Origin: Bacteroidota bacterium | Lineage (GTDB): Bacteria; Bacteroidota; Bacteroidia; Palsa-965 | NCBI GenBank assembly: GCA_006218065.1 | Contig: VBWE01000015.1 | Coordinates: 1-64,000, forward strand | Direction of reading: 5' to 3' | Length of the DNA: 64,000 nt | Shown here: piece by piece, positions 5,148 through 59,806 of the stretch | Layout of the letters: the number at the start of each line of letters is the position of its first letter | How positions within the stretch are numbered: the first letter of the stretch is position 1 | Position numbers and translations under genes: made by a program | The notes under the pieces: model-generated | Databases searched by the model: none | What the model saw: the letters and a program-made list of their open reading frames with translations, nothing else | What the model was told of the DNA's origin: nothing

Positions 5148-7133
5148 ATGAAAAATCTGTACGGCGCCCGTTTTCTTTTGGTTTTCCTGCTGTTTTCCGG
5201 CTACCTGCCCGGGCAGCAAAGCAAAACGGATTCACTGATCAGCCTGGTGAATACGCTGAAAGCCGATTCGCATAAAGTAGATGTACTGAACGACATCAGC
5301 TGGGCGATCCGCGCCACCGGCAATTTTTACGCGGCGAAACCGTATGCCGACAGCGCACAAAAACTGGCGGAAAAAATAAACTATCCGAAAGGCCTGGGCA
5401 AAGCGCACAGTATCCTGGGCGTGCTGAACGTGGAGCAGGGCAATTACCCGGAAGGATTGGAACAGCATTTCAAAGCGCTGAAGATCCGTGAAAAACTAAA
5501 TGATCTCCCGGGAGTAAGCACCTCGTACCTGAACATCGGCGAAGTGTACCGGCTGCAGCGCGATTATCCGCGTGCGCTGGAGAACTATAATACCTCGCTG
5601 AAAATAAAAGAGAAAACAGGCGACCGGAAAGGAATCGGAAACTGCTACAATAATATCGGCAATATCTATTACCTGCAGAAACAGTTTGAAAAGGCGCTCG
5701 AAAATTATACCGTGTCCTTGAAAATCCGCGAATCACTTGGTGATGGCAGCGGCATTATGACCAGCTATAACAATATCGGCAACGTGTTTTTTTCGCAGGA
5801 GAAATACACGGAAGCCCAGGCCAGTTACCAGGAAGTGCTCAAACTTTCGGAAGAGCTGGAAGATGTTATGGGAATAATTTCAGCCACGGCCAATATCGGG
5901 AACACGTACTTTAAACTGAAAAAATATACGGAAGCAAACGCCTGCTATGAAAAAAGCCTGGCGCTGGCGAAAGAAACCGGGAGCAAGGAGGATATCCTCC
6001 AGGCCTATATCAGCATGACCGTCGTCGACAGCCTGCGCGGTAATTACCAGTCGGCTTTCAGCAATTACAAGCAATACGTGATTTACCGGGACAGTCTTTT
6101 CAACGAAGAGAAAGCAAGCGATATCGTGCGGATGCAGATGACCTACGATTCCGATAAAAAAGAAGCCATGCTGAAAGCGGACCAGGAAAAAGAACGCGCT
6201 GTTGCCGAAGAGCGCGACCGGAGGCAAATGCTGGTGATCTGGATAGGCGCTGCCGGCCTTTTACTGGTGATCGTTTTCGCGATTTTCATGTACAACCGTT
6301 TCCGAGTGACCCGTGAGCAGAAACTCGTGATTGAAGCGCAGAAAAAAGAAACGGATCGCCAGAAACTCGTCATCGAAGAAAAAAACAAAGACATTACCGA
6401 CAGTATCCGTTATGCACAGCGCCTGCAGCAGGCCATCCTGCCGCCTGAAAAATTATGGATGCAGCAGTTGCCGCAGAGTTTTATTTTTTACAAACCGAAG
6501 GATATCGTCGCAGGTGATTTTTATTTTATGGAAGCGACCGGTGATCTTGTGTTTTTTGCCGCCGCCGATTGTACCGGCCACGGCGTTCCCGGCGCGATGG
6601 TCAGCGTGGTTTGTTCGAATGCGCTCAACGGGGCGGTGAAGGAATTCGGACTGCTGGAGCCGGGAAAAATACTGGACAAGGTGACGCAGCTCGTACTGGA
6701 AACATTCCGGAAGTCGGAAAACGAAGTGAAGGACGGCATGGATATTTCCTTCTGCTGCCTGGACAAAAGAACAAATACGCTGACCTGGGCCGGGGCCAAC
6801 AACCCGCTCTGGTACCTGCAGGCAGGCGAAATGCTCGAACTGAAAGCCGACAAACAACCGATCGGCAGTTTTGAAAATCCTCAACCATTTACTACGCATA
6901 CTGTCCGGCTGAACCCCGGCGATTTGGTTTATATTTTCACCGACGGTTATGCCGACCAGTTCGGCGGTCCCGACGGCAAGAAGTTCAAATACAAGCCAAT
7001 GAAAGAACTGCTGATGAGCATGAGCGGGCAGGAACCCTACCGGCAACACGCCCTGCTGGCCGAAACCTTCGACAAATGGAAAGGGAATTTGGAACAGGTG
7101 GATGATGTACTGGTGATTGGAATACGTATCTGA
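5148..7133 (+). CDS. Membrane TPR + SpoIIE-type phosphatase
   Basis: 661 residues, third gene of the operon, 6 nt after the previous stop. The order is signal peptide (1-22), TPR repeats (about 45-310, with the regular NNIGN motif repeated in successive units), one membrane helix (about 362-384), a coiled coil with a repeated QKLVIE segment, then a SpoIIE/PP2C domain (about 420-661). Visible motifs are AGDFYF, CTGHGVPGAMVS, KDGMDISF, GANNPLWYL and TDGYADQFGG. The TPRs are NNIGN-type, like those in Bacteroidota sensor proteins. A palindromic intergenic element starts directly at the stop codon and no separate terminator is evident. Confidence 0.88.
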   Translation: MKNLYGARFLLVFLLFSGYLPGQQSKTDSLISLVNTLKADSHKVDVLNDISWAIRATGNFYAAKPYADSAQKLAEKINYPKGLGKAHSILGVLNVEQGNYPEGLEQHFKALKIREKLNDLPGVSTSYLNIGEVYRLQRDYPRALENYNTSLKIKEKTGDRKGIGNCYNNIGNIYYLQKQFEKALENYTVSLKIRESLGDGSGIMTSYNNIGNVFFSQEKYTEAQASYQEVLKLSEELEDVMGIISATANIGNTYFKLKKYTEANACYEKSLALAKETGSKEDILQAYISMTVVDSLRGNYQSAFSNYKQYVIYRDSLFNEEKASDIVRMQMTYDSDKKEAMLKADQEKERAVAEERDRRQMLVIWIGAAGLLLVIVFAIFMYNRFRVTREQKLVIEAQKKETDRQKLVIEEKNKDITDSIRYAQRLQQAILPPEKLWMQQLPQSFIFYKPKDIVAGDFYFMEATGDLVFFAAADCTGHGVPGAMVSVVCSNALNGAVKEFGLLEPGKILDKVTQLVLETFRKSENEVKDGMDISFCCLDKRTNTLTWAGANNPLWYLQAGEMLELKADKQPIGSFENPQPFTTHTVRLNPGDLVYIFTDGYADQFGGPDGKKFKYKPMKELLMSMSGQEPYRQHALLAETFDKWKGNLEQVDDVLVIGIRI

Positions 7134-7213
7134 AATTGCGATTGCCGATTGTGGATTGCCGATTTTTTTCAGTAAAAAATAGAATTAAAAATCACAAATC
7201 GGCAATCGCAAAT
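7134..7213. repeat. Intergenic inverted repeat (AATTGCGATTGCCGATT arms)
   Basis: The 17-nt arm at 7134-7150 is the reverse complement of 7197-7213 apart from an end base. Inside is a second GATTGCCGATT word. It fills the gap between the phosphatase operon and rimO. Similar words (GAATGCCGAATT) occur at 11120-11145. Confidence 0.7.
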
Positions 7214-7234
7214 CAAAAATCGGAATTTCAGCAG

Positions 7235-16283: not shown

Positions 16284-16400
16284 AGATATGAGACTTGAGA
16301 TATGAGATTAACGTGTTCCGCTAAAGAGTTCTCGTGTTTTTTATCGACTTATCTGGCTGTCCCGGATTTCCATGTGTCTCAAATCTCAAGTCTCATATCT
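16284..16400. repeat. Inverted repeat, AGATATGAGACTTGAGA family, copy 1
   Basis: The arms 16284-16307 and 16377-16400 are 24-nt reverse complements with one mismatch. The element ends 2 nt from the stop codon of the acetyltransferase gene at 16403. The same words recur at 22011-22120. Confidence 0.75.
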
Positions 16401-21989: not shown

Positions 21990-22010
21990 AGGATTGCGGA
22001 CCAGATTTGA

Positions 22011-22120
22011 GATGTGAGGCTTGAGATATGAGACTTCTTGTAATACTGGAAGTGTGTACTGTTGTATGCTGTTTTTCAATGAATTAGTGTTTGTTATGTG
22101 GGTATCTCAAGTCTCACATC
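22011..22120. repeat. Inverted repeat, GAGATATGAGACTTGAG family, copy 2
   Basis: GATGTGAGGCTTGAGATA (22011-22028) pairs with TATCTCAAGTCTCACATC (22103-22120) with one mismatch. Further TGAGATGTGAG words flank both arms. Same word family as 16284-16400, with a different centre. Confidence 0.75.
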
Positions 22121-22173
22121 TCACATCTCATATCCGGAAAAGGTACGCCCGAAGGGGAATATGGTCCGTGTCG

Positions 22174-26098: not shown

Positions 26099-26283
26099 TA
26101 AAGGGCAAAAAGCAAAAGGCAAAAGCAAAGAATAACAAGACGTCACACTGAGCGAAGACGAAGTGTGTGTAACGCGGTCTCTTTTACACGCACTTCGTCT
26201 TCGCTCAGTGTGACGTTATCGTTTTTTATTATTTATTAAGATGGGAGATATTTATCATTTTTGCTTTTGCCCTTTGCTTTTTC
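26099..26283. repeat. Nested inverted repeat between bioD and bioA
   Basis: The centre is a very strong hairpin. 26141-26165 is a perfect 25-nt reverse complement of 26191-26215 (core CACACTGAGCGAAGACGAAG), extending to 32-nt arms (26141-26172 and 26184-26215) with one mismatch and an 11-nt loop. Outside it, AAAGCAAAAGGCAAAAGC words on the left (26104-26130) face TTTTGCTTTTGCCCTTTGC on the right (26259-26280). The same outer word family surrounds a different inner palindrome at 34936-35083. Confidence 0.85.
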
Positions 26284-34935: not shown

Positions 34936-35083
34936 AAAAAGCAAAGGGTAAAAAAGGGAATATCCGCTTTTCGCAGACTCGGGTACCGGAGTCTCTGCTA
35001 GTCGACGACTCAGTCGTCGACTAGCGAAGTTTTGTTTACGAAAGCTGGTTTAAATATATTTTGCTTTTTGCCCTTTGCTTTTT
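34936..35083. repeat. Nested palindrome containing REP core copy A
   Basis: The outer arms 34936-34954 and 35065-35083 pair (AAAAAGCAAAGGGTAAAAA with its near reverse complement). At the centre, 34997-35025 is a perfect palindrome with 13-bp stems (GCTAGTCGACGAC) and a TCA loop. It is identical to 40438-40466 and 48092-48120. The flank GTACCGGAGTCTCT before it is also shared with the 48-kb copy. Confidence 0.9.
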
Positions 35084-40300: not shown

Positions 40301-40361
40301 GGGCAAATGCCTGAAAATGCTCATCCGCCGCAGGCGGACTTCGCTTTCCAGGCATTTGCCC
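40301..40361. repeat. Nested palindrome, GGGCAAATGCCTG arms
   Basis: GGGCAAATGCCTG (40301-40313) is a perfect 13-bp match to CAGGCATTTGCCC (40349-40361). In the loop, TCCGCC-GCA-GGCGGA (40324-40338) is a second perfect hairpin. Confidence 0.8.
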
Positions 40362-40437: not shown

Positions 40438-40466
40438 GCTAGTCGACGACTCAGTCGTCGACTAGC
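40438..40466. repeat. REP core palindrome, copy B
   Basis: This 29-bp perfect palindrome is identical to copies at 34997 and 48092. It is followed by ATAGACCCTTTTCC, close to the GAAGACCCTTTTCC that follows the 48-kb copy, so the shared element extends beyond the palindrome. It lies 38 nt before the next gene's -7 box. Confidence 0.9.
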
Positions 40467-47513: not shown

Positions 47514-48071
47514 ATGGAAAGAAAGGATGGGAGGTATCGTGTTTCAAATCCGGAATCGACATATTTCCTCACATTGACGATCAAAGGCCATTGCCAGGTT
47601 TTCGGGAGAGAAAAATATTGCTCCGCCGCGATTGATTCACTTCGATATTGCATTGATGAAAAAGGACTTCGGGTTTATGCCTGGGTATTGATGCCAGACC
47701 ATCTGCATATAATAGCAAAGGCTGAAAATGGAAACTTGCCTTCTATCATAAGGTCATTCAAGGTAAATACGACAAAGCATATTATTTCCGGGCTCAAGCA
47801 TGACAACGAAGAATGGGAAAAAGAGATGCTCCGGATTTTTGGTTTCTGGGGAAAACTCAATCCGAAAAATGAAAATTACCAGGTTTGGGACAGCGGTTAT
47901 TATGCAAAAGAATGTGCATCCTCCGGTTTTCTGATTCAGAAAATCGATTACATCCATAATAACCCTGTGCGGGCTGAACTTGCTGCAAGGCCGGAAGGTT
48001 TTCTTTACAGCAGCGCAAGAGATTATTTTGGAGGAAAAGGGATACTGCCGGTGGTAAAGCCGTTTAAATAG
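47514..48071 (+). CDS. REP-associated tyrosine transposase (RAYT)
   Basis: 185 residues. RAYTs are single-copy domesticated relatives of IS200/IS605 transposases that act on REP palindromes. The HUH motif is VLMPDHLHIIAKA with His63 and His65; the tyrosine helix is IDYIHNNPVRAEL, with Tyr146 a good candidate for the nucleophile; an intervening VWDSGYYAKECAS block is typical of RAYT rather than IS200. It has no IS-type ends. A perfect 29-bp palindrome starts 21 bp after its stop and the same palindrome occurs at two other places in the window, the classic RAYT-REP relation. Confidence 0.9.
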   Translation: MERKDGRYRVSNPESTYFLTLTIKGHCQVFGREKYCSAAIDSLRYCIDEKGLRVYAWVLMPDHLHIIAKAENGNLPSIIRSFKVNTTKHIISGLKHDNEEWEKEMLRIFGFWGKLNPKNENYQVWDSGYYAKECASSGFLIQKIDYIHNNPVRAELAARPEGFLYSSARDYFGGKGILPVVKPFK

Positions 48072-48091
48072 TCTGTTGTACCAGAGTCTCT

Positions 48092-48120
48092 GCTAGTCGA
48101 CGACTCAGTCGTCGACTAGC
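48092..48120. repeat. REP core palindrome, copy C, next to RAYT
   Basis: GCTAGTCGACGAC, TCA loop, GTCGTCGACTAGC: 13-bp perfect stems. The left flank TACCAGAGTCTCT matches that of the 35-kb copy; the right flank runs directly into tandem units. Confidence 0.95.
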
Positions 48121-48256
48121 GAAGACCCTTTTCCACGGACTCGTGTAACGAAGACCCTTTTCCACGGACTCGTGTAGCGAAGACCCTTTTCCACGGACTC
48201 GTGTAACGAAGACTCTTTTCCACGGGCTCGCGTAACGAAGACTGTTTTCCTCGGGA
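48121..48256. repeat. About 4.7 tandem 29-bp units after the REP core
   Basis: Units at 48121-48149, 48150-48178, 48179-48207 and 48208-48236 read GAAGACCCTTTTCCACGGAC then TCGTGTAAC, with 1-5 changes in the later ones, and a partial fifth unit runs to about 48256. Units are contiguous, with no spacers. Part of a unit is present after copy B at 40467. Confidence 0.95.
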
Positions 48257-48277: not shown

Positions 48278-51200
48278 CTAATTCAATTTATACTCCACCT
48301 CCGGCAGCCGGTTCCGCAGTTCTTTCAGGAACGTATTATCCGGTTTCACGCGCAGTTTGCGCGAAGCCAGCGTAATGCCGATGTTTTCCATTTTTTCGAC
48401 GAGGGCGAATTTCACCTGGCACGGACCGGGATGAACCTGCACGAGGTTGTTGATCATTTCAATAAGCTCATCGTTCACCGCGTGCAGCGGCATGGAAAGC
48501 GTGATCGATTTTACTTTTTTCTCCAGCAGTTCGGTCAGCAGTTCCATCGAATGTACTTTCATCTCCAGGTTGTCCGCATTCCCGAAACGTTCCTGCACCT
48601 TGCCGCGGATGCTCACGAAAAAACCGGGCGTAAGGATGAACGATTTGAATTTGACGTAGTCCTCGCCGAAAAGGGCGAATTCAAAAGAATCGTTGTAATC
48701 TTCCAGGACAAATGTTCCGAACGGTTTCCCGGTTTTGGTCATTTTATGGTTCACGGTCGTGATCATGCCGCCCACGCTCATGTCCCGCCCGCGAATCGGG
48801 GCAAGGTCTTTCAGCATGCCGACTTTGTCGCGGCAGAAATTTTCCATCTCGATCCGGAAATCGTCCAGCGGATGGTAAATACCGATCACGTCGCGCTCGA
48901 ATTTCAGTTTTTCGAGCGGGATCCACGGTTCGATTTTCGGAACCGGCGGCTCGGGCATTTCCACGTCTTCGGAACCGCTCATGTCGAAAAGCGATACCTG
49001 CGAGGAATTTTTACTTTCCTGGAAACCCAGCCCGTAGCGCATCGCTTTTTCAAGAAAAGTGGAGCCGTTTGCGCCGTCGGTATGCAGGAACTGTGCGCGG
49101 TGCATATTCGTGAACGAATCGAATACGCCGGCGTAAGCCATGCTTTCAAACGTTTTTTTGTTGGCTGCGCGCAGGTTGATGCGGCGGACTACATCGAAGA
49201 AACTGGTGAACGGACCGTTGTTCCTGCGCTCTTCTTCAATGGCCAGTACGGCGCCTTCCCCCACACCTTTCACGGCGGCAAGCCCGAAACGGATCTCGCC
49301 TTTTTGGTTGACGGAAAAACGCAGTTGCGATTCATTGATGTCCGGGCCGAGTACCGGGATACCGATTCGCCGCGATTCTTCCATGAAGAACGTGATCTTA
49401 TCGATATTGCCCAGGTTGTGCGTGAGCACGGATGCCATGTATTCCGCGGCGTAATGCGCTTTGAGGTATGCCGTCTGGTAAGCTACAAACGCGTAGCAGG
49501 TAGAATGCGATTTGTTGAAAGCGTACTGCGCAAATGCTTCCCAGTCGGTCCACACTTTCTCGCAGATTTTTTCATCGAGGTTGTTTTTCCGGATGCCGTC
49601 GATGAATTTACTTTTCATCTTGTCGAGCGTGGCCTTGTCTTTTTTACCCATCGCTTTACGCAGCACATCGGCATCGCCTTTCGTGAAGCCGGCGAGTTTC
49701 TGCGAGAGCAGCATCACCTGCTCCTGGTACACGGTAATGCCGTAGGTATCCTTCAGGTATTGCTCCATCTCGGGCAGGTCGTACGAAATTTTTTCGCGGC
49801 CGTGCTTGCGCAGGATGAAGTTGGGAATGTATTCGAGCGGACCCGGGCGATACAAGGCGTTCATCGCGATGAGGTCTTCGAATTTATCGGGCTTGAGTTC
49901 GCGCAGGTATTTCTGCATGCCGGCGGATTCAAACTGGAACGTTCCGTTTGTTTCTCCGCGCTGGTATAAATCGAACGTCTTTTTGTCGTCGAGCGGTATT
50001 TCGTCAATATTGATGTCCCGGCCGTGATTTTCCTTGATCATGCGCAGCGCATCGCGGATGATCGTAAGCGTTTTGAGCCCGAGGAAGTCCATCTTGATCG
50101 CGCCGGCGTCTTCGATCACTTTACCGTCGTACTGCGTAATGAGCAGCGTGGATTCTTTTGAGGTGCAAACCGGGATGATCTCCGTCAGGTCGCGCGGCGC
50201 GATGATGATACCTGCGGCGTGAATGCCCGTTCCGCGCACGGAACCTTCGAGCACGAGCGCTTCGCGCAAAACCGCCGCACGTTCGTCGCTGCCTTTGTGG
50301 ATGATGCGCAGTTGTTTTACGTTCTCGAGATCGTCGCCGTTGAGTCCTTCTTTTTCACGCAGACTTTTTTCACCGTCCATCGGCGCATTGATCACGCGGT
50401 CTAGTTCGATTCCCGGTTTGTCCGGTACGAGTTTCGCCAGCGCGTTGGCCTGGTCGAGCGGAAGGTCGAGTACGCGGGCCACGTCCTTGATACTCATTTT
50501 GGCGGCCATCGTGCCGTATGTAACAATCTGCGCCACCTGGTTGCGGCCGTATTTGTCCACCACGTAATCGATCACTTTCTGGCGGCCCTCGTCGTCGAAG
50601 TCGGTATCGATATCAGGCATGCTCTTCCGGTCGGGATTGAGGAATCGCTCGAACAGGAGATCGTACTTGATCGGATCGATATTCGTAATGCCGATACAGA
50701 AAGCGACCGCGCTTCCCGCCGCCGAGCCGCGGCCCGGCCCCACGAAAACGCCGATGTCGCGGCCGTGGTTGATGAAATCCGCCACGATCAGGAAGTACCC
50801 GGCGAATCCCATTTTCTCGATCGTGCCGAGTTCGAACTGCAGGCGTTCGTCCACGTCGGGCAAAATGATTTCACCCCAGCGCTTGCGTGCGCCTTCGTAA
50901 GTAATATGCCGGAGATACTGATCCTGCGTCTGGAAATTTTCCGGAATCTGGAAATGCGGAAGCAGGATATCGCGCTTGAGCTGCAGGAGCTCGACCTTGT
51001 CCACGATCTCGTTCGTATTGTCGAGCGCTTCGGGAACGTCGCTGAAAAGTTCGGTCATTTCGGCCTGCGTTTTCAGGTAGAACTGGTCGTTCCAGAATGC
51101 GAACCGTTTTCCTTTGCCCGAGTTATCGTCGTCGTTGAATTCCTTCATCGTCGGCGTGCTCTGCTTTTCGCCGGTATTGATGCAAAGCAGGATATCGTGG

Positions 51201-51874
51201 GCATTGTAATCGGTTACGTCCACGTAATGCGTATCGTTCGACGCGATGATTTTTACGCCGTACTTCACTGCAAAACGGAGAAGCACTTCGTTCACTTTGT
51301 TCTGGTCCGGGATATCGTGCCGCTGCAGTTCGATGTAATAATCTTCACCGAAAAGATCGAGCCACCATTTGAATTCTTTTTCGCCTTCTTCTTCGCCTTT
51401 GCGCAGGATGGTGCGCGGCACGGAAGCGGCCAGGCAGCAGGTGGTGGCGATCAGCCCGCTGTGGTATTTCAAAATCAGTTCCTTGTCGATGCGCGGGTAC
51501 TTGCTGTAAAATCCTTCGATATACCCGAGTGAGCAGAGTTTGACTAAGTTCTTGTATCCTTCCGCATTTTTGGCGAGCATCAGCTGGTGATAGCGGTTGT
51601 CGCGGACGTCCCGGGAAAATTGTTTCTGGTGCCGGTCGTCGACTAAGTAAAATTCACAGCCGACGATAGGCTTGATCCGGTTCGGATTTTCGGCGGTATT
51701 GTGTTTCGCCGCTTCGGCCACGAATTTAAAAGCGCCGAACATATTGCCGTGATCGGTGATGGCGATGGCCGGCATATTGTCGCCGACGGCTTTTCTATAG
51801 AGGTCCGAAATCCCGGCCGCCCCGTCGAGCAGGGAGAACTGGGTATGGACGTGAAGGTGCGAAAACGTTGGCAT
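48278..51874 (-). CDS. dnaE: DNA polymerase III alpha subunit
   Basis: 1198 residues, standard for DnaE. It is the replicative polymerase. The N-terminal PHP domain starts FSHLHVHTQFSLLDG and has ITDHGNMFGAF. The polymerase active-site aspartates lie in SMPDIDTDFDDEGRQKV, with FVGPGRGSAAGS and YQEQVMLL before and after. The C-terminal OB-fold region includes VGGMITTVNHKMTKTGKPFG. The 3' end converges on the RAYT repeat array with 22 nt between. Confidence 0.97.
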   Translation of the reverse strand: MPTFSHLHVHTQFSLLDGAAGISDLYRKAVGDNMPAIAITDHGNMFGAFKFVAEAAKHNTAENPNRIKPIVGCEFYLVDDRHQKQFSRDVRDNRYHQLMLAKNAEGYKNLVKLCSLGYIEGFYSKYPRIDKELILKYHSGLIATTCCLAASVPRTILRKGEEEGEKEFKWWLDLFGEDYYIELQRHDIPDQNKVNEVLLRFAVKYGVKIIASNDTHYVDVTDYNAHDILLCINTGEKQSTPTMKEFNDDDNSGKGKRFAFWNDQFYLKTQAEMTELFSDVPEALDNTNEIVDKVELLQLKRDILLPHFQIPENFQTQDQYLRHITYEGARKRWGEIILPDVDERLQFELGTIEKMGFAGYFLIVADFINHGRDIGVFVGPGRGSAAGSAVAFCIGITNIDPIKYDLLFERFLNPDRKSMPDIDTDFDDEGRQKVIDYVVDKYGRNQVAQIVTYGTMAAKMSIKDVARVLDLPLDQANALAKLVPDKPGIELDRVINAPMDGEKSLREKEGLNGDDLENVKQLRIIHKGSDERAAVLREALVLEGSVRGTGIHAAGIIIAPRDLTEIIPVCTSKESTLLITQYDGKVIEDAGAIKMDFLGLKTLTIIRDALRMIKENHGRDINIDEIPLDDKKTFDLYQRGETNGTFQFESAGMQKYLRELKPDKFEDLIAMNALYRPGPLEYIPNFILRKHGREKISYDLPEMEQYLKDTYGITVYQEQVMLLSQKLAGFTKGDADVLRKAMGKKDKATLDKMKSKFIDGIRKNNLDEKICEKVWTDWEAFAQYAFNKSHSTCYAFVAYQTAYLKAHYAAEYMASVLTHNLGNIDKITFFMEESRRIGIPVLGPDINESQLRFSVNQKGEIRFGLAAVKGVGEGAVLAIEEERRNNGPFTSFFDVVRRINLRAANKKTFESMAYAGVFDSFTNMHRAQFLHTDGANGSTFLEKAMRYGLGFQESKNSSQVSLFDMSGSEDVEMPEPPVPKIEPWIPLEKLKFERDVIGIYHPLDDFRIEMENFCRDKVGMLKDLAPIRGRDMSVGGMITTVNHKMTKTGKPFGTFVLEDYNDSFEFALFGEDYVKFKSFILTPGFFVSIRGKVQERFGNADNLEMKVHSMELLTELLEKKVKSITLSMPLHAVNDELIEMINNLVQVHPGPCQVKFALVEKMENIGITLASRKLRVKPDNTFLKELRNRLPEVEYKLN

Positions 51875-52043
51875 GCAGCGAATTGGGAGAAAGTGAAAAA
51901 ACTGGTTTAGGTGCCTTTAAAATTAAGGCTTTCGCGGCTTCCGAAGAAGGATGTTGAAAAGTATTAATAACCGTTTTAAAGGTCTGCTGGCGCGATTGCG
52001 AAGGCTTTATTTTGGTAGTACATCGGTTTAACGTATTCGCTCT

Positions 52044-52143
52044 TTACCGCGGAGACGCAGGGGCGCAGAGAATCCGCAGAGGAATATTTCTCTGCGGCAA
52101 AGGGCTGTGGGATGGGCTCTGCGTCCCCGCGTCTCCGCGGTAA
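52044..52143. repeat. Nested palindrome, TTACCGCGGAGACGC arms
   Basis: The arms 52044-52070 and 52117-52143 are 27-nt reverse complements with two mismatches. Inside, CCGCAGAG (52074-52081) pairs with CTCTGCGG (52090-52097). It is the main content of the 379-bp gap between dnaE and the next gene. Confidence 0.8.
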
Positions 52144-52253
52144 AATTTTTGAACCTTTTAAAATGCAAACACCACTGAATATTTCAAACGGATGCATTAC
52201 CTCATTTTCTGCCGGATGCGCGTTTTTGGTAACTTAGCTAAAATACTTTTCAG

Positions 52254-55361: not shown

Positions 55362-55420
55362 TCCGTATAAAATTAAGTTTTCGTTACTTTTCAAAGTATG
55401 TTTTGCAATGCGTCTTTTTT

Positions 55421-55555
55421 AAGCGGCTGGAGGCAGTCGGCAGGAGGCAACAAACAGTCTTTGTAAATCAGACGCAGCTAGCCGAAGTCTGAGACTTCGA
55501 CTAACGAAGATCTCGTTACCCAGGACTGCCTCCTGCCGACTGCCTCCTGCCGCTT
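55421..55555. repeat. MITE-like element with 29-bp terminal repeats, REP core copy D
   Basis: 55421-55449 and 55527-55555 are 29-nt inverted repeats with one mismatch, each holding GGCAGTCGGCAGGAGGCA. The centre has TAGCCGAAGTC-TGA-GACTTCGACTA (55479-55503), a diverged relative of the REP core with 11-bp stems and one mismatch. The segment CTTTGTAAATCAG before the core is shared with 59724-59736. Confidence 0.85.
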
Positions 55556-55652
55556 AAATGAAAACTATTCCTGCATAAAACCAACTTCCTCGATATATAA
55601 ATCTCGCAGGAATTTTATACGGACATATTCGTTCAATTCGTAATTTGTCCTC

Positions 55653-59701: not shown

Positions 59702-59806
59702 GCGACAGTCAGCAGCAAACAGTCTTTGTAAACCAGGCGCAGCTAGTCGAAGTCTCAGACTTCGGCTAACGAAGATCTTGTTACCCGGGACTGCCGCCTG
59801 CCGCTT
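59702..59806. repeat. Diverged MITE-like element, REP core copy E
   Basis: TAGTCGAAGTC-TCA-GACTTCGGCTA (59744-59768) forms 11-bp stems with one G.T pair. The left flank AGTCTTTGTAAACCAG and right flank CTAACGAAGATCTTGTTACC match the element at 55421-55555, but the left terminal repeat is degraded. Its end is at GCCGCCTGCCGCTT near 59806. Confidence 0.8.

Follow-up and report, generated by a model that had tools for sequence, protein, structure and literature searches.

The locus examined here raises the question of whether a gene for a REP-associated tyrosine transposase (RAYT, or TnpA-REP) and the palindrome lying immediately beside it constitute a REPtron, that is, an enzyme together with its own family of repeats. 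The gene and the palindrome are found in a stretch of 64,000 nucleotides from a Bacteroidota genome (contig VBWE01000015.1), hereafter the window. Answering the question requires that the protein be identified, that copies of the palindrome be traced through the genome and its relatives, and that the sequence surrounding each copy be considered.

The RAYT gene and the palindrome beside it

The gene, the palindrome that adjoins it, and the other copies of that palindrome in the window are as follows.

47514 to 48071, plus strand: RAYT (TnpA-REP) gene, 185 aa, subclass 2.6 / Bertels group 5 type
48092 to 48120, plus strand: REP palindrome adjoining the RAYT gene, in the gap that separates its 3' end from a convergent dnaE-like gene (75.6 bits)
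34997 to 35025, plus strand: REP palindrome, subfamily A, intergenic, exact copy (75.9 bits)
40438 to 40466, minus strand: REP palindrome, subfamily A, upstream of a pyruvate-dehydrogenase-like gene, exact copy (75.7 bits)
55477 to 55505, plus strand: diverged REP copy, subfamily B (GCTAGCCGAAGTCTGAGACTTCGACTAAC), model match 55469 to 55519 (36.8 bits)
59742 to 59770, plus strand: diverged REP copy, subfamily B, model match 59734 to 59784 (37.9 bits)

The RAYT reading frame is intact and corresponds exactly to the 185-residue protein with PDHLHII and YIHNNPV motifs that a first-pass annotation of this DNA had described. When scored against NF047646, the NCBIfam model of REP-associated tyrosine transposases, the protein reached 105.9 bits, exceeding the cut-off of 80, and it scored 32.8 bits against PF01797. 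Its score against the IS200 model NF033573 was 25.3 bits, well below the cut-off of 55, and membership in an IS200 group, which the earlier annotation had named as a result that would count against it, was thus not observed. Residues H63, H65, W125, Y146, N150, S166, and S167 show no variation across 34 homologs; among the landmarks of the protein are the HuH motif (H63/H65), the catalytic tyrosine (Y146) at the head of YIHNNP (146-151), and the SS tail (166-167). A search of the PDB by sequence alone returned only weak IS200 matches, and the fold of the RAYT was therefore predicted instead. The AlphaFold2 model (pLDDT 93) was compared with all PDB chains by Foldseek, and its top match was 4ER8, the Escherichia coli RAYT with a REP hairpin (E 2.7e-8). 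The window protein belongs to the RAYTs and not to the IS200 transposases. Its gene is bordered by a hypothetical gene on one side and by the convergent dnaE-like gene (48278-51874, minus strand) on the other.

The palindrome, GCTAGTCGACGAC-TCA-GTCGTCGACTAGC, is 29 bp long, perfect, and begins 21 bp past the RAYT stop codon, as had been reported; it flanks the gene directly, downstream, and on one side only. The identical palindromes noted earlier at 34997-35025 and 40438-40466 do match it base for base. Two details of the first-pass annotation required revision. The 3-nt TCA loop is only nominally a loop since its T and A can also pair, leaving 14-bp arms with one variable base between them, and the tally of copies in the window, while correct for the three exact ones, overlooked the diverged copies at 55477 and 59742. 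Half-sites with up to two mismatches number eight in the window versus approximately one expected from shuffles. Additionally, a further inverted repeat (GGGCAAATGCCTGAAAA / TTTCCAGGCATTTGCCC) is present at 40301-40361, approximately 80 bp away from the REP copy that starts at 40438.

Copies of the palindrome in the genome and its relatives

A genome-wide count and a test of intergenic placement had both been proposed as checks on the pairing, and both came out in its favor. In the 5.26-Mb genome to which the window belongs, 30 strict copies (up to three mismatches) were found as compared to none for a control pattern, and a covariance model built from the strict copies yielded 132 strand hits that represent about 68 distinct places. 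Ten copies are identical in sequence, the bit scores of the copies range from 80 down to 19, and a minimum of two subfamilies can be distinguished, designated A (GCTAGTCGACGACTNAGTCGTCGACTAGC) and B (GCTAGTCGAAGTCTNAGACTTCGACTAAC). All but one of the 30 strict copies (29) are located outside any ORF of 100 aa or more, the sole exception (L016) being inside a greedy 180-aa ORF that may be spurious. Likewise, 31 of the 38 diverged copies lie outside such ORFs, with the other seven in putative ORFs of 100-240 aa; at the diverged-copy loci, 79% of random positions fall inside ORFs.

At the RAYT locus, the palindrome is a strong intergenic hairpin between convergent genes, which is what would be expected of a protein-binding or transcription-termination signal that has spread by selection and not by mobility. 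Nevertheless, the genes flanking strict copies are in mixed orientation (10 ++, 10 --, 5 divergent, and 4 convergent), unlike those around terminators, and the terminator reading was rejected on this basis. Further, no conserved T-run is attached to the palindrome, its extended flanking sequence is conserved, and the palindrome is absent from all relatives, such that a signal of either kind is a very improbable explanation for these repeats. Within the stem, four base pairs have changed on both sides, a number reached in none of 500 shuffles, indicating that palindromy itself is maintained, through selection or correction.

The age of the copies bears on a variant of the REPtron reading that is compatible with it, namely that the RAYT produced the copies in the past and is now inactive, with the copies being retained through inheritance and local correction. 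The many diverged copies, the existence of subfamilies A and B, and the occurrence of copies as singletons and not as clusters would all fit such a relic, while an intact RAYT frame with intact catalytic residues and ten copies that are still mutually identical would not. An inactive enzyme is accordingly viewed as a realistic possibility, albeit one held with less than even confidence.

None of 394 other genomes of the class contains the palindrome, even where a homologous RAYT is present, and a comparison with relatives, which had also been suggested earlier, showed that relatives with such RAYTs carry other palindromes. Within the family, 8 of 11 relatives encode a match to the window RAYT and none of the 11 carries the window palindrome; the RAYTs of relatives often adjoin hairpins of other sequence. 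For example, the RAYT on contig C77 of genome G002 adjoins the palindrome CCGCAGGATTNNNAATCCTGCGG, which occurs 51 times in G002, with seven of these copies next to this RAYT, and is missing from the other 11 genomes. The window genome itself encodes a second, distant RAYT-like gene (L022; G000:C76:34640-35041, minus strand) that scored 61.5 bits, under the cut-off, and just upstream of this gene is a GTAG-type REP, CGTAGGGGCGATGCNNNGCATCGCCCCTACG, with nine copies in this genome and none elsewhere in the family. Three RAYTs of the family therefore correspond to three palindromes, each of which is multi-copy and restricted to the genome of its own RAYT. Three of the CGTAGGGGCGATGCNNNGCATCGCCCCTACG copies are located on contig C60 with a spacing of about 1.5 kb. 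In the relatives G006, G007, and G003 (L041, L042, and L043), a different RAYT branch adjoins hairpins such as GTGTCGGGTCTTCCGACCCGACAC and ATGTCGGGTGTTATCACCCGACAT.

An alignment-based survey of related RAYTs covered the best 80 out of no fewer than 449 relatives, which makes counts across the Bacteroidota lower bounds. It yielded 79 loci, at which every named taxon belongs to the Bacteroidota. Hairpin density was assessed at the 70 of these 79 loci with adequate flanks, where the density of perfect hairpins is 1.59 per kb at distances of up to 500 bp from the RAYT versus 0.13 per kb beyond 1.2 kb, a 12-fold enrichment beside the gene. At 18 of the 70 loci, one hairpin family recurs at distances of up to 1 kb, in every case on both sides of the gene, as compared to two loci in the distal control zone. 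Across the 79 listed loci, GTAG occurs next to hairpins at chance level only. The commonest triplet at the hairpin foot is GCT (28 of 175 hairpins, in 19 loci), a tally in which hairpins within one locus are not independent. This triplet also starts the window palindrome, as it does in 50 of the aligned REP places, and in subfamily A it lies inside the stem; as a lead only, GCT is a candidate for the missing guide sequence. Hairpins of group 5 RAYTs (L087-L165) often have ATTTGCAAT, ATTTGTAAT, or GTTTGTAAC at the apex and GCT or GTT at the foot, and it is possible that the shared apex and foot triplet form a group-specific recognition pattern.

Flanking units and nested inverted arms

The repeat unit is larger than the 29-bp palindrome. 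In oriented copies, AGTCTCT precedes the palindrome and GAAGTCT comes after it, both conserved, and beyond this foot are degenerate units of approximately 15 bp that are inverted and run inwards from both sides. With respect to the first-pass proposal that the protein mobilizes the palindrome, the pairing of enzyme and repeat is well supported, and any mobilization would involve a unit larger than 29 bp, of which the conserved flanks are also part. The flanking features of the window that are relevant here are the following.

48120 to 48254, plus strand: tandem array, 29-bp unit x 4.7 (two ~14.5-bp sub-units), 93% matches, abutting the palindrome beside the RAYT gene
34936 to 34963, plus strand: left outer inverted arm, 7-bp repeats (AAAAAGCAAAGGG...), pair I10, 82% complementary, around the REP at 34997
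35056 to 35083, plus strand: right outer inverted arm, pair I10, around the REP at 34997
55418 to 55449, plus strand: left outer inverted arm, GGCAGTCGGCAG 7-bp repeats, pair I4, 97% complementary, at a subfamily B copy
55527 to 55558, plus strand: right outer inverted arm, pair I4, around the subfamily B copy at 55477

The array at 48120-48254 is an expanded form of the REP flanking units. When searched alone within the window, the ~15-bp units show no excess over shuffles, and they therefore mark the repeat and not the genome at large. Longer inverted arms, as read from the tabulated results, surround about 28 of the 65 copies tested and usually consist of 7-bp repeats (AAAGGGCAAAAGC, GGCAGTCGGCAG, and ACCGCAGAGACGC); around approximately half of the copies, outer arms could not be detected. 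Because flank-folding z-scores (70-nt flanks) were significant in 15 of 30 copies, flanks were swapped between copies, and the mean arm complementarity score was 11.9 for a copy's own flanks versus 8.2 for swapped flanks (p = 7e-5). Arms of the GGCAG type occur at 60 sites in the genome; 6 of these enclose a REP, as compared to 0.2 expected, and others enclose unrelated cores. These repeats thus form a nested mosaic of palindromes, and the REP is one core among several. The GGCAG arm sequence is nearly confined to the window genome, with 81 exact matches there and no more than two in any relative.

Intergenic inverted repeats without a REP are also present in the window (7130-7231, 16284-16400, 22001-22137, 26107-26282, and 52043-52144). 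Their arms consist for the most part of 7-bp units in tandem (ATTGCCG, TGAGATA, GCAAAAG, and CGCAGAGA types), and they enclose other cores in the same nested layout as that around the REP. A second recurrent core, GTCACACTGAGCGNAGACGAAGTGTGTG together with its inverse, is found inside TTTTGCCCTTTGC arms at 26140-26216 of the window and at L199, L219, and L221.

Complementarity that is specific to each copy, and a REP in so few of the GGCAG sites, could indicate that the palindrome is a mere apex of larger nested inverted repeats (MITE-like or generated by template switching) that are spread or homogenized by other means, with its adjacency to the RAYT a coincidence. The same could be said of L083 (G000:C24:88849-88877), where the flanks are intact and the palindrome is missing, a slippage-type loss that is consistent with two CGAAGTCT direct repeats having mediated a deletion across the hairpin. 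However, cores and arms combine freely, identifying the REP as an independent module, and outer arms are not detected at roughly half of the copies. Moreover, two other RAYTs of the family have private palindromes, and adjacency to hairpins is group-wide. An origin of the palindrome solely as part of a nested element is therefore considered unlikely.

The nesting could also be reconciled with a REPtron. Tentatively, and with considerable doubt, it is suggested that the RAYT inserts or exchanges the REP core in the loops of intergenic inverted repeats of 7-bp units that were already present, and that arms, ~15-bp middle units, and cores recombine independently to give a RAYT-driven, hairpin-in-hairpin mosaic. 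A search of the literature found no description of such a mosaic for Bacteroidota REPs and, for 7-bp intergenic repeats in inverted arms, only a paper on direct repeats in Beggiatoaceae. A partial precedent for REP nesting is provided by the GTAG-15 dimers of A. variabilis, which are inserted in long palindromic sequences (Di Nocera et al., 2013; PMC3733652). The conserved ~15-bp flanks and the frequent nesting in longer arms of 7-bp repeats are new here.

The probable REPtron and its comparison with known systems

The locus is probably a REPtron that comprises a single-copy chromosomal RAYT (subclass 2.6, Bertels group 5) and its own REP family. Y1 HuH enzymes (e.g., IS608, ISDra2, and the E. 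coli RAYT) bind a folded single strand, nick it at a short sequence located at the foot, and carry out strand transfer. Here, a palindrome exposed as a single strand, for example on the lagging-strand template, would fold into a hairpin of 13-14 bp that, along with its foot, would be recognized by the HuH/Tyr146 enzyme. A nick beside the hairpin would generate a covalent 5'-phosphotyrosine link, and rejoining of the ends elsewhere would copy or move the hairpin and its flanking ~15-bp units. The target would be other single-stranded intergenic DNA, often inside pre-existing inverted repeats. Binding, cleavage, and movement of the hairpin by the RAYT, and its present activity, are what we infer from these data. 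Several points argue against a REPtron. First, a single copy out of 68 lies against the RAYT gene; judging by the numbers of copies and genes, the chance of adjacency to any one gene 3' end would be about 1-2%. Second, replication slippage or template switching can also alter the arms and the palindrome, which would produce covariation without an enzyme. Third, the copies show greater age and diversity than would be expected of a recent burst of transposition.

RAYT-REP pairs had been regarded in the first-pass annotation as little described in Bacteroidota, which is only partly right given that the group had already been delineated by Quentin et al. (2018; PMC6006769). In that study, subclass 2.6, equivalent to Bertels group 5, is mostly from Bacteroidetes and is characterized by YIH[QN]NP, an SS tail, about 82 residues between the HuH and Y motifs, and atypical flanking structures that lack GTAG and are copied elsewhere in the genome. 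The window RAYT resembles this subclass in its Bacteroidota host, its YIHNNP (146-151) and SS (166-167) motifs, the 81 residues from H65 to Y146, and a REP that has no GT[AG]G head and is copied elsewhere in the genome. It differs in having DHLH at the HuH motif instead of the consensus NH[LIV]H, which is not an absolute criterion, and in having D rather than Q after the W; the four nearest homologs in the family have NHLH, NHIH, or NHVH. Moreover, the window REP is a strong, perfect hairpin with long conserved flanks and nested arms, whereas the structures of subclass 2.6 are reported to be weaker (PMC6006769). Among the REP-linked groups, RAYTs of group 5 / subclass 2.6 are not well understood, as the GTAG guide is missing from their repeats. 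The locus offers a candidate enzyme-substrate pair with 68 natural substrate variants, and the second RAYT with its GTAG REP in the same genome offers an internal control. The nested arms additionally pose the question of whether single-strand transposases target existing hairpins.

With the E. coli RAYT-REP system (4ER8), the window locus shares the HuH/single-tyrosine fold and a single chromosomal gene that adjoins its repeat, although the two proteins are only 19% identical. REPs of E. coli have GTAG at the foot and form BIME clusters, whereas those of the window genome are mostly singletons with AGTCTCT / GAAGTCT at the foot in place of the canonical GT[AG]G, in agreement with the earlier remark that this palindrome is unlike the GTAG-headed REP of enterics. 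Similar to the GTAG and CGTC superfamilies of REPs, which are intergenic palindromes of 20-40 bp and are often species-restricted (PMC3733652), the repeat is short, intergenic, and confined to its host; the C76 RAYT of the window genome has a GTAG-type REP, while the window palindrome has neither tag at its foot. A CGTC is present in its arms but lies inside the stem and not at the foot, and the CGTC-tag reading was rejected; CGTC repeats are reported never to flank RAYTs (Di Nocera et al., 2013; PMC3733652). The IS200/IS605 elements have a Y1 HuH catalytic core and hairpin substrates in common with this system, yet the Y motif of the window RAYT is NNP and not ENQ, and no element is copied as a unit with the RAYT gene. 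Thus, with a repeat that is unusually layered and a nested architecture that is unexplained, the locus is a well-supported further example of an enzyme-plus-repeat pair.
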